A stretch of 64,000 nt of DNA. Source: an alpha proteobacterium SCGC AAA028-C07 (GTDB lineage: Bacteria > Pseudomonadota > Alphaproteobacteria > Pelagibacterales > Pelagibacteraceae). Where the stretch lies: assembly GCA_000419465.1 (NCBI GenBank), contig ATTB01000003.1, positions 1 to 64,000 of the forward strand, written 5' to 3'. A program made the position numbers and the translations under genes. The notes beneath the pieces were generated by a model. The model saw only the letters and a list, made by a program, of their open reading frames with translations, was not told where the DNA came from and did no database searches. Position 1 is the stretch's first letter. The number at the start of each line of letters is the position of its first letter. Positions 20,413-30,232 of this stretch are shown here, in pieces.

Positions 20413-20876
20413 AAGTACTTTTTAAATTCTTCTATAACTTCTTGATAAAGCTTCTTTTTAAAAGGAACTATTAATTTAGGCAGCTCCAAAGGCTCAGCCC
20501 AACGCCAATCATAAAACTCCGCTTTTTTTTGTTTGATATTAATCTCTTCATGATCTCCTAAAAATTTTGCAAGAAACCAAGTTTGTTTTTGTCCTTTATA
20601 TTTTCCGTCCCATATTTTTCCAAGAAGCTCATTAGGTAAATCATAAATAAATTCTTTCTCTGATTTTTTTATAATTTCAATTGATGTGATTCCTGTTTCT
20701 TCTTTAAGTTCCCTTTTAGCAGCGCTGACAACATCTTCCTTTTGATCAACCCCACCTTGAGGCATTTGCCATGCCTTAGTACTATCAATTCTTTTTCCGA
20801 TAAAAACTTTAGTTTCTTGATTAAGAAGCATTATCCCAACACCTTTTCTATAAGGAAGATTGCTTAAATCTTTCAT
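20409..20876 (-). CDS. rppH: RNA pyrophosphohydrolase (Nudix)
   Basis: Nudix box GGVDQKEDVVSAAKRELKEETGI; LPYRKGVGIMLLN and WQMPQGG. Confidence 0.95.
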   Translation of the reverse strand: MKDLSNLPYRKGVGIMLLNQETKVFIGKRIDSTKAWQMPQGGVDQKEDVVSAAKRELKEETGITSIEIIKKSEKEFIYDLPNELLGKIWDGKYKGQKQTWFLAKFLGDHEEINIKQKKAEFYDWRWAEPLELPKLIVPFKKKLYQEVIEEFKKYF

Positions 20877-22018
20877 GACGCTTTTAAAAGCTTAAGTGCG
20901 TAAATTAATTGATTGTCGTTTGTAGGATCGTTTATTTTAAAATTATCTTTCTGTTGCTCTACTTTGATATCTGGTTGAACGCCAACTTCTTCAATTGTTT
21001 CACCGCTTGGTAGATAATATTTAGCTGTTGTTAATCTTAGTCCGCCACCATTAGATAAAGGCATAATAGACTGAACAGACCCTTTACCAAAAGATTTTTC
21101 ACCAATAACGATTGCTCGCTTATGATCTTTTAAAGCTCCAGCAACTATTTCAGATGCAGAAGCTGAACCTTTGTTAATAAGTACAATTAGTGGTTTTCCA
21201 TTAATTTCATCCCCTTTTTTGGAATTATAAACTTTTATATCTTTGGGATCCCTTCCTTTTGTAGAAACAATTTCTCCGCTATCTAAAAAAGCATCTGATA
21301 TTTTAATTGCTTGTGAAAGAAGCCCGCCCGGATTATTTCTTAGGTCTAAAACATAACCAGTTATATTTGGTTTGCTTTTGCTTATTTCTCTAACCTTATC
21401 TATTAATTCATCACCACTTTTTTCATTAAAGGATCTTAATCTTAAATAACCAATATTTTCTTTAATTTCAGAAACAACAGATTTAGTTTTAATTGTTTCT
21501 CTAACTATTTTGACAATTATTGGGTCATCGACATCTATTCTTCTAATAGTTAATGTGATTGGAGTTCCGCTTTTGCCACGCATAGTATTTACAGCCTCAT
21601 CCAATGTTAAACCCTTAACCTGCTTGTTATCTAATTTAATAATATAATCTCCCGACCTTATTCCAGCCCTATCGGCAGGCGTATCATCAATTGGAGATAT
21701 CACTTTTACCAGTCCAGCTTCCATTGTAACTTCAATACCAAGACCACCAAATTCACCCTTAGTTTCAGTGTTCATGCTCTTGAATGTTTTAGGACTCATG
21801 TAAGAAGAATAGGGATCTAACGATTGAAGCATTCCGTTAATTGCTCCATCAATTACTTCACCTTCATCAATTTGTTTAAAATACTCTTTATTTATTGTTT
21901 CAAGAATGTCTCCAAACAAATCTAATTTTTCATAAAGAACATCTTTTTTTTGTGAAAAAGCGTTTTGCGAAAATATATTTAAAAATAAAAATGTAAGTAA
22001 TAAGTAAATTTTTTTCAT
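20873..22018 (-). CDS. ctpA: Carboxy-terminal processing protease (S41, PDZ)
   Basis: Signal peptide; PDZ region GGLGIEVTMEAGLVKVISPIDDTPADRAGIRSGD; catalytic SASASEIVAGAL. Confidence 0.94.
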   Translation of the reverse strand: MKKIYLLLTFLFLNIFSQNAFSQKKDVLYEKLDLFGDILETINKEYFKQIDEGEVIDGAINGMLQSLDPYSSYMSPKTFKSMNTETKGEFGGLGIEVTMEAGLVKVISPIDDTPADRAGIRSGDYIIKLDNKQVKGLTLDEAVNTMRGKSGTPITLTIRRIDVDDPIIVKIVRETIKTKSVVSEIKENIGYLRLRSFNEKSGDELIDKVREISKSKPNITGYVLDLRNNPGGLLSQAIKISDAFLDSGEIVSTKGRDPKDIKVYNSKKGDEINGKPLIVLINKGSASASEIVAGALKDHKRAIVIGEKSFGKGSVQSIMPLSNGGGLRLTTAKYYLPSGETIEEVGVQPDIKVEQQKDNFKINDPTNDNQLIYALKLLKAS

Positions 22019-27475: not shown

Positions 27476-27503
27476 AATATATATAGCCACCTTAGCTTGT
27501 CAA
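27476..27503 (-). promoter_or_regulatory. sigma70-type promoter for rplU-rpmA
   Basis: Minus strand TTGACA (27498-27503), 16-bp spacer, TATATT (27476-27481), just upstream of rplU. Confidence 0.6.
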
Positions 27504-27533: not shown

Positions 27534-28295
27534 TTAGAAGTTATTTTTTAGATCTCTAATCTTCTTGAAAAAGTCGACTTCATTTAAATCTTCAAATCCT
27601 ATGCTTTTTTTAAATTCCAAATTATCAAATTTTAGAAAGATATTTAATCTCATTTCATCACTTAAAATAGAAGGCATGCTAGATAATTTATTTTTAATGT
27701 TACCGCTTATTAGATTAAATTTTTCTGTTAATTGAGAATTATCTTTATCTATTTCCATACAAAATTTTAGATTATTAATTGTATATTCGTGTCCACAGAA
27801 TATTTTTGTTTCAGGAGGCAGCGATCTAATTTTTTTTAAAGAATTTATCATCTCTAAATAAGAGCCTTCAAATAATCTTCCGCTTCCAAAAGAAAACAAA
27901 GTGTCTCCTGTAAAAACAGCCTCTTCATTTTTAAAATAATAAAAAATATGACCGGATGTATGACCAGGAACATGTTCTACCAAAACATCAGAGCCTTCAA
28001 AATTCCAAATTTGTTTATCATTTAAAAGTATATCAATTCCTGGAATTCTATTTTTGTCTTTTTCAAAACCTAATATTTGCGAATTAAATTTTTTCTTTAG
28101 TTCTAGATTGCCACCTATATGATCCGCATGGTGGTGGGTATTTAAAATATATTTTAGATTTAAATTTTTTTTTTTTAAAAAATTTGTAACAGGTTCTGAT
28201 TCTGAGGGATCAACAACGCATGCATTTTTAGTTTTTTTATTTTCAATTATATAAGCATAATTATCTTTTAGACACGGAATAATATGAATATCCAT
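27534..28295 (-). CDS. gloB: Hydroxyacylglutathione hydrolase (glyoxalase II)
   Basis: THHHADHIGG metallo-beta-lactamase motif; GHTSGHI, FTGDTLFSFGSGRLFEG. Confidence 0.95.
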   Translation of the reverse strand: MDIHIIPCLKDNYAYIIENKKTKNACVVDPSESEPVTNFLKKKNLNLKYILNTHHHADHIGGNLELKKKFNSQILGFEKDKNRIPGIDILLNDKQIWNFEGSDVLVEHVPGHTSGHIFYYFKNEEAVFTGDTLFSFGSGRLFEGSYLEMINSLKKIRSLPPETKIFCGHEYTINNLKFCMEIDKDNSQLTEKFNLISGNIKNKLSSMPSILSDEMRLNIFLKFDNLEFKKSIGFEDLNEVDFFKKIRDLKNNF

Positions 28296-28308: not shown

Positions 28309-28911
28309 TTAGTTTTTTTTACTAATTAAAAAAACACCAAATTCAGAATAAAGATTTTTTATTTCCAAATTTAAATTTGTAATTACCGAAGATCTGTCTT
28401 GGGTTACCGCGATTGATTTTATTATGTTAATTTTGTCAGAATGACATAAATCAAAAAAATCTTTAATAGTGCACATATGTAAATTAGGTGTATCGTGCCA
28501 TGTATTAGGTAATGTTTTTGTAACTGGCATTCTTCCCTTAAGTAGCAAGCTAAATCTAACTTTCCAGTATCCAAAATTAGGAATTGAAACAATTGCGTTT
28601 TTTCCTATTCTTAAAAGCTCATGTAAAACTTTTCTAGGTTTGTAAAAAGCTTGTAGAGTTTGTGTTAGAATTACATAATCAAAAGATTGATCTGGATAAT
28701 TGACCAAATCCTTTTCGGCATCACCTTCAACAACAGAAAGGCCTTTGCTTAGACTTTCCTTAACTTTTTCGTGATCGATTTCAATGCCTCTAGCATCAAT
28801 TTTTTTTTCTTTTTTTAAGTGAAGAAGAATACTTCCATCACCACAACCTACATCGAGAACTTTTGAAAATGGTTTTATAAAATCTATTACTATTTTTGAC
28901 TCTAATTTCAT
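28309..28911 (-). CDS. metW: MetW-family methionine biosynthesis protein
   Basis: 200 aa; VLDVGCGDGSILLHL, DYVILTQTLQAFYKPRKVLHELLRIG, SIPNFGYWKVR. Confidence 0.93.
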   Translation of the reverse strand: MKLESKIVIDFIKPFSKVLDVGCGDGSILLHLKKEKKIDARGIEIDHEKVKESLSKGLSVVEGDAEKDLVNYPDQSFDYVILTQTLQAFYKPRKVLHELLRIGKNAIVSIPNFGYWKVRFSLLLKGRMPVTKTLPNTWHDTPNLHMCTIKDFFDLCHSDKINIIKSIAVTQDRSSVITNLNLEIKNLYSEFGVFLISKKN

Positions 28912-28918
28912 TTAAATT

Positions 28919-28943
28919 AAAAAACACTTTGAAGTGATTTTTA
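28919..28943 (-). terminator. Short hairpin with T-tract between the SAM-II aptamer and metW (possible expression platform)
   Basis: Minus strand AAAAATCACTTCAAAGTGTTTTTT: CACT/AGTG core flanked by A-run/T-run; weak stem. Confidence 0.4.
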
Positions 28944-28990
28944 CCTCTTTAGCTGTTTATATGCGCTCGCAATTCGGTAAATCAGCGCAA
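28943..28990 (-). promoter_or_regulatory. SAM-II riboswitch aptamer upstream of metW
   Basis: Minus strand TTGCGCTGATTTACCGAATTGCGAGCGCATATAAACAGCTAAAGAGGT matches the remembered SAM-II pattern (CGC-UGAUUUA-CC-..UUGC-..-GCGC-..-AGCUAAA-AGG), including the P1 stem TGCGC/GCGCA and the pseudoknot core. Confidence 0.9.
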
Positions 28991-28994
28991 ATGA

Positions 28995-29023
28995 TTTTTA
29001 TCTTAGGCATAATTTATTGTCAA
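28995..29023 (-). promoter_or_regulatory. Promoter driving the SAM-II riboswitch/metW
   Basis: Minus strand TTGACA (29018-29023), 17-bp spacer, TAAAAA (28995-29000), ending just before the aptamer. Confidence 0.6.
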
Positions 29024-29152: not shown

Positions 29153-30232
29153 ATGGCTCTAAGATTTAAAAATTTTAATAATTTAAAATATGTAGGTGGA
29201 TTATCACAGATAAAAAATATTAAAGATCCAATAAAACTTTCTGCCAATGAATCTGCTTTAGGACCTTCAAAAAAAGCTATCAATGCTTTTATCAAAAACA
29301 GCAAAAAATTATCTAGGTATCCAGATGGAAACTCAAATATTTTAATTCAGTCGATATCAAAAAATTTACGATTAAATCCCAATAATATTATTATTGGCAA
29401 TGGTTCTGATGAAATTATCAGCTTAGCTTGTCAATTATTTTTAAAACCAAATGATGAAGTTATTGTTACCGAGTATAGTTTTTTAATGTACAGGATTTAT
29501 ACTAAAATCCACGGTGGCAAAGTTATTGTGGCACCAGAAGATGATTTTAAGGCAAATATAGATGGAATATTAGCGAAGGTAACTTCTAAAACTAAAATCG
29601 TTTTTTTGGCTAATCCAAACAATCCAACAGGAACATATTTAGATAAAAATGAAATGTTATTACTTAGAAAAAAATTACGTAGTAATATTTTATTAGTAGT
29701 TGATGACGCTTACTTTGAATTTGTTATTAACAAAGATTATGTATCTGGGTTAGATTTATTTAGAGGCCACAGCAATGTTCTGGTTACTAGATCTTTTTCT
29801 AAAATATATGGACTTGCTAGTTTAAGACTTGGTTGGGGCTACGGTCCAAAAAATATCATTTCTGCGATGAAGCTTATTAAACCGCCTTTTAATGTTAATT
29901 CAGCTGCACAAGTAGCTGGTGTAGAGGCTCTCAATGACAAAAATTGGTTAAAAAAGAATATAGAACACAATAGTAAGTGGGCTGACATTTTTTTTGAAAA
30001 TTTTGTAAATTTAGGAATTTTAACAAATGTACCTGTAGCAAATTTTTTCTTAATGCGTTTTGATAATAAAGAAATAACAGCGGATAAAGTTTACGATAAA
30101 TTTATTAAATCTAGGATTATATTGAGAAAAATGAAGGGTTATGGGTTATCTAATTCACTAAGAGTGACCATTGGAAATAATAAAGAAAATAACTTATTTT
30201 TAAAAACTCTGAATAAAATTTTTGATGTTTAA
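29153..30232 (+). CDS. hisC: Histidinol-phosphate / aromatic aminotransferase
   Basis: Class I/II PLP enzyme: SANESALGPS, ANPNNPTGTY, VTRSFSKIYGLASLRLGWGYG; next to tyrA. Confidence 0.9.
   Translation: MALRFKNFNNLKYVGGLSQIKNIKDPIKLSANESALGPSKKAINAFIKNSKKLSRYPDGNSNILIQSISKNLRLNPNNIIIGNGSDEIISLACQLFLKPNDEVIVTEYSFLMYRIYTKIHGGKVIVAPEDDFKANIDGILAKVTSKTKIVFLANPNNPTGTYLDKNEMLLLRKKLRSNILLVVDDAYFEFVINKDYVSGLDLFRGHSNVLVTRSFSKIYGLASLRLGWGYGPKNIISAMKLIKPPFNVNSAAQVAGVEALNDKNWLKKNIEHNSKWADIFFENFVNLGILTNVPVANFFLMRFDNKEITADKVYDKFIKSRIILRKMKGYGLSNSLRVTIGNNKENNLFLKTLNKIFDV

Follow-up and report, generated by a model that had tools for sequence, protein, structure and literature searches.

The metW gene of a freshwater SAR11 bacterium, encoded in the 64,000-nucleotide stretch of DNA analysed here (the window), stands directly behind an apparent SAM-II riboswitch, with metX absent from its side. 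This raises the question of how a SAM sensor came to sit on metW, and what it might still regulate there. The original prediction, made from the letters of this stretch, had proposed that SAM control was retained on an orphan metW, with metX lost or relocated, or with MetW doing something relevant to SAM without MetX.

A SAM-II riboswitch with its own promoter precedes metW

Judged by its sequence, the metW leader is a genuine SAM-II riboswitch equipped with a promoter, and would be expected to bind SAM. Upon re-reading the minus strand the predicted coordinates and sequences of promoter, aptamer and metW proved exact (Table 1). A covariance-model search had been proposed as a check: the RF00521 (SAM_alpha) model covers 28928-28998 of the minus strand over its full length with an E-value of 2.6e-4 (all Rfam against 301 bases), but at 26.9 bits the match lies below the gathering score of 36 bits, which is a library threshold and not a structural feature. 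Hence, the aptamer is absent from the gathering-level Rfam scan. It is the single RF00521 match across the window's genome (G000; E-value 1.7e-4), and RF01826 (SAM-V) has no match in that genome. Many SAR11 metX leaders likewise score below the RF00521 cut-off, which is consistent with short linkers and not with loss of the motif.

A clade model was built from 23 aptamers of the genus, the family and the sister family; since the window's own aptamer is among them, the 69.2 bits that it obtains are not independent evidence, and the E-values of this model are, by the tool's own statement, only rough. In the alignment of these 23 aptamers 97.8% of the P1 and P2 cells are paired, with five double-changed pairs against 2.2 in shuffles, and pairing falls to 30-52% when the partners are slid. 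P1, with its GAUUUA loop core, is 97% paired and shows double changes, and the pairs of P2 (loop CC..UUGC with the 3' strand GCUAAANAGG) are formed in 95.7-100% of cases, although its inner four pairs are invariant and so lend no covariation support. The stem and the pseudoknot that define RF00521 are thus both present, as is the expected context: a methionine-biosynthesis gene, metW, downstream, and a promoter at a conserved position close by. The promoter reads TTGACA-N17-TAAAAA, with the aptamer starting ten bases from the start of TAAAAA, and nearly all of the 35 leaders compared have TTGACA, N17 and approximately 40 nt to the aptamer GATTT. The full-length match, the covariation and the conserved promoter position together bear out the SAM-II element and promoter proposed for metW.

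The predicted neighbours, gloB downstream and a divergent hisC, were likewise confirmed in gene family and spacing. Given that gloB lies so close behind metW and that a consensus promoter precedes rplU, gloB is probably co-transcribed with metW, in a metW-gloB unit. In subclade IIIa and in G003 (loci L056, L057, L063, L070 and L035) about 700 bases lie between metW and gloB; the window is free of this insert. A search of the PDB with MetW returned distant methyltransferases only.

Table 1. Coordinates of the features at the metW locus within the window
Feature	Position	Strand	Evidence or remark
-35 element TTGACA	29018..29023	-	hexamer read directly; position kept in relatives
-10 element TAAAAA	28995..29000	-	weak consensus match; conserved position; relatives have TACAAA or similar
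SAM-II aptamer TTGCGCTGATTTACCGAATTGCGAGCGCATATAAACAGCTAAAGAGG	28944..28990	-	RF00521 match, clade model, covariation
P1 stem	28984-28989 pairs with 28962-28967	-	6/6 pairs in the window
Pseudoknot P2	loop CCG..UUGC with 3' GCUAAAGAGG	-	covariation alignment
GAGG	28944..28947	-	forms the P2 3' strand; may serve as a Shine-Dalgarno sequence
Hairpin UAAAAAUCACUUCAAAGUGUUUUUUA between aptamer and start codon	28918..28943	-	predicted fold of -5.4 kcal/mol, a stability that 1% of shuffles reach
metW, 200 aa	28309..28911 (ATG 28911-28909)	-	TIGR02081, 240.4 bits, above the equivalog cut-off of 189.5; 1.1e-71
gloB (hydroxyacylglutathione hydrolase)	27534..28295	-	TIGR03413, 282 bits; 13 bases after metW
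Likely separate rplU promoter TTGACA-N16-TATATT	27476..27503	-	11/12 consensus positions; consensus match only
hisC	29153..30232	+	TIGR01141, above cut-off; divergent neighbour, same in relatives

metX has been relocated in the freshwater genus

Outside the window's genus gene order is uniform: metW directly follows metX at all 127 metX loci examined, a count that includes some duplicates of one genome, and a SAM-II element lies at most 70 bases before the metX start at 126 of them, the remaining one being cut by a contig end. Related genera therefore keep the order SAM-II-metX-metW. Within the genus, SAM-II runs straight into metW, 31-38 bases before it and with metX absent, at 10 of 10 metW loci (two of these, L047 and L071, are one genome). 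At this locus tyrA, hisC, gloB and rplU are unchanged relative to the relatives, hisC serving as the marker of the ancestral position.

The reported absence of metX holds at the metW locus and fails for the genome as a whole. A profile search places metX of the same genome on another contig (G000:C4:71532-72590; 448 bits), where it ends a sulfur operon with the order sseA (rhodanese)-yeeE-like transporter-cysK-metX, overlaps the end of the cysK-like gene by 4 bases and faces metY; neither SAM-II nor SAM-V is found before metX at that locus. In the closed genus genome G004, metX lies at 152400 and metW at 1004762, and in neither of these genomes does metX lie immediately upstream of metW, as in a metXW operon. 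All genus-mates from which metX was recovered encode it away from metW, and no SAM-II motif directly precedes metX at nine genus loci. A second metW co-transcribed with metX, which would have spoken against the original prediction, was not seen: the genus genomes with metW have one copy each, never adjoining metX. Both proteins are thus encoded in G000 and only their adjacency is gone, and the supposition that MetW must act without MetX is not supported. The MetX homologue of G004, which we take as LSUCC0530, spans G004:C1:152400-153458, and its NCBIfam scores leave the acyl donor unsettled; LSUCC0530 (the LD12 isolate 'Ca. Fonsibacter ubiquis') has been reported to be without homoserine O-succinyltransferase (PMC6018831).

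The metX and metW trees agree with each other: for both genes the window's genus forms one clade, sister to the brackish subclade IIIa (genus g9 contains HIMB114, of this subclade). This agreement makes it most likely that a single move of metX within the genome took place in the ancestral freshwater SAR11 (LD12/Fonsibacter) lineage, with vertical inheritance thereafter. The surroundings of metX differ in G003, G006 and G011, and hence it may have moved again after the first relocation. Between the two fates that had been offered for metX, gene-order comparison decides for relocation; loss is ruled out by the gene found elsewhere in G000, and horizontal replacement by the match of the metX tree to the metW tree.

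A sample of 385 genomes from across the class contains 189 with SAM-II and 209 with metW. Where the matches listed place SAM-II and metW on one contig and strand, there were only metX-sized gaps of 1.24-1.35 kb (six genomes, compared by eye) and no SAM-II directly on metW; this is a limited negative, as the figures come from the matches listed and the filters were strict, losing weak matches including G000 itself. The literature searched yielded no description of an orphan SAM-II-metW arrangement.

Expression platform of the leader

Three expression platforms are found behind one aptamer among the SAR11 relatives. In most marine genera and in the sister family the aptamer is followed by a strong terminator carrying 8-9 U. 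The arm and loop of this terminator are complementary to the 3' strand of the aptamer, and the energy of the duplex is mostly in the range of about -9 to -12 kcal/mol. In the Pelagibacter genus g4 a U run comes straight after the aptamer, without a hairpin. In subclade III, the window included, a hairpin sits between the final GG of the aptamer and the AUG. Such variety within one family suggests that the outputs of SAM-II change readily. As regards the Pelagibacter-type metX leaders (L053, L060, L064, L068 and others), 7-8 U follow the aptamer with no hairpin, and the pseudoknot itself might serve as the terminator structure.

In the window 32 bases separate the aptamer end from the metW ATG, and the predicted fold of the hairpin leaves 6 of them unpaired before the AUG. 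Across 19 distinct subclade III leaders this gap ranges from 23 to 38 nt, and the unpaired remainder is 5-8 nt; the shuffle fractions for this geometry are mostly 0-0.03 per leader, with two at 0.06 and 0.10. A Fisher combination for the spacing gives p ~7e-21, which is not to be taken at face value, given that these leaders share ancestry and the limits of 4-9 bases were set with the data in view; the per-sequence fractions are the safer guide. The leader classes and the clade model, like the spacing limits, were defined after inspection of the sequences. To accommodate variable 3' ends, the motif used to locate aptamers was relaxed once, and the nearest in-frame ATG was taken as start codon.

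All but one of these 19 leaders contain GAGG or AAGG (the exception has AGGG), and the 3' end of the genus 16S rRNA, ...GGATTACCTCCTTTCT, retains CCUCC in its tail. The kept spacing, together with the subclade IIIa hairpins that often have no U run, tilts us somewhat towards translational control by masking of the GAGG strand, as opposed to termination. Counting against masking is that words resembling a Shine-Dalgarno sequence are not enriched before starts in the window (5 of 58 genes, versus 5-6 in control stretches), so that such words may play little part in translation in this organism.

A proposed history of the leader and its alternatives

We consider it likely that an ancestral SAM-II-metX-metW-gloB operon lost metX, and that the leader still controls metW, probably at the level of translation, which would throttle the metX step via MetW. 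According to this proposal, the ancestor of the freshwater genus would have moved metX out of the operon and in among sulfur-assimilation genes, with metW taking the start-codon position behind the leader. As expected of the SAM-II class, high SAM levels would lead to repression of the first gene behind the leader: SAM would stabilise the pseudoknot and so mask the GAGG strand, which in the unmasked state could reach a functional spacing of about 6 bases from the AUG by looping out of the intervening hairpin. A helping role of MetW in homoserine acylation has been put forward, and through MetW acting on MetX in trans SAM would then still reach the metX step. A bolder version, in which SAM feedback on homoserine acylation passes solely via MetW in trans, metX being freed from the riboswitch while its helper is gated, is one that we offer only tentatively and with considerable doubt.

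The same relocation could instead be combined with transcription attenuation, the hairpin and U run forming an intrinsic terminator that SAM binding would favour. The terminator and antiterminator that the sister family and the majority of related SAR11 genera have behind the same aptamer lend this some appeal, and the window hairpin, which contains or precedes UUUUUU, could be a weak terminator. However, the genus stem is weak, with 4 core pairs, and its U run pairs with an A run; the brackish sister genera retain the hairpin without a U run (L086, L067); and the complementarity of the aptamer 3' strand to the hairpin, on which an antiterminator would depend, is close to what shuffled sequences give in 9 of the 10 leaders of the genus. 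A terminator as the sole platform is thus disfavoured, and attenuation appears rather unlikely overall.

The leader could also be a passive relic, metW having inherited the nearest promoter and its SAM control serving no selected role; the arrangement would then amount to ordinary gene-order drift. Such an outcome follows automatically once metX is removed, and the Rfam score is reduced, but the aptamer core is intact in all 10 genus leaders, the hairpin varies in sequence and keeps its shape, and even G003 and G006, which diverge most within the genus, retain both core and hairpin, making this very improbable. We give equally little credence to the idea, raised by the original prediction, that MetW of this genus was recruited to a function that involves SAM but not MetX: metX and metW now occupy different places and seem to be under different control, but all genus genomes with metX and reasonable completeness also carry metW, and the metW tree shows no unusual branch length on the stem of the genus.

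Unless the leader is such a relic, a single relocation has provided a clean natural experiment: in a freshwater lineage of high abundance the two genes have been parted, and the SAM sensor has stayed with metW. The role of MetW is poorly established in the searchable literature, and this arrangement renders testable the idea that it is the regulated component of homoserine acylation.

Other SAM riboswitches of the genus and its relatives

The clade model finds a second SAM-II-like element in G000, before metF-metE-metZ (G000:C1:96419-96470, minus strand; L174, with genes from L050), with 34.8 bits; the Rfam model does not detect it. It has the genus core GAGUUA in place of GAUUUA, and its terminator carries the complement of GCUAAAGCG. 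Therefore metW is not the sole SAM-II target, and the notion that the genus has kept no SAM riboswitch besides the metW leader was dropped. The SAM-II regulon of the genus would comprise at least metW-gloB and metFEZ, without metX.

SAM-II and SAM-V occur in tandem at G011:C30:2778-2948, before metY, and at G048:C1:694449-694615; a pair of this kind is reported to precede bhmT in Ca. P. ubique (PMC5069961). Elsewhere in the window, the Rfam family Rp_sR47 matches 21037-21343 of the plus strand with 65.6 bits, antisense within a peptidase-like ORF (20873-22018, minus strand), and for this reason may reflect coding conservation and not an sRNA.

Comparison with known systems

SAM-II (RF00521) has been reported before metX of Ca. 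Pelagibacter (PMC2704228), and before metXW in Bradyrhizobiaceae, metW being a member of SAM_alpha regulons (PMC4239095); the latter work, with reference to Alaminos and Ramos 2001, mentions a suggested role of metW in facilitating homoserine acylation. With these alphaproteobacterial metX and metXW systems the window shares the aptamer core, the promoter just before P1, a methionine-pathway target and the inclusion of metW in the unit. It differs from them in that its unit is without metX, metW being first and directly regulated, and in its shorter linkers, which bring it below the Rfam cut-off.

Many SAM-II leaders have a terminator and antiterminator (PMC1273637), that of Sinorhizobium meliloti metZ being of the same type; the sister family and the majority of related SAR11 genera conform to this design, whereas in 9 of 10 leaders of the window's genus the antiterminator complementarity was undetected. 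The SAM-II riboswitch of S. meliloti metA, on the other hand, controls translation via a distant Shine-Dalgarno sequence (PMC9373788). In that system a proven terminator lies between two AUGs and the distance is 74 nt, whereas the window has a 32 nt gap that is nearly all predicted hairpin; the likeness between the two is that the aptamer contains a Shine-Dalgarno-like GAGG, remote from the AUG in use, with a hairpin between.
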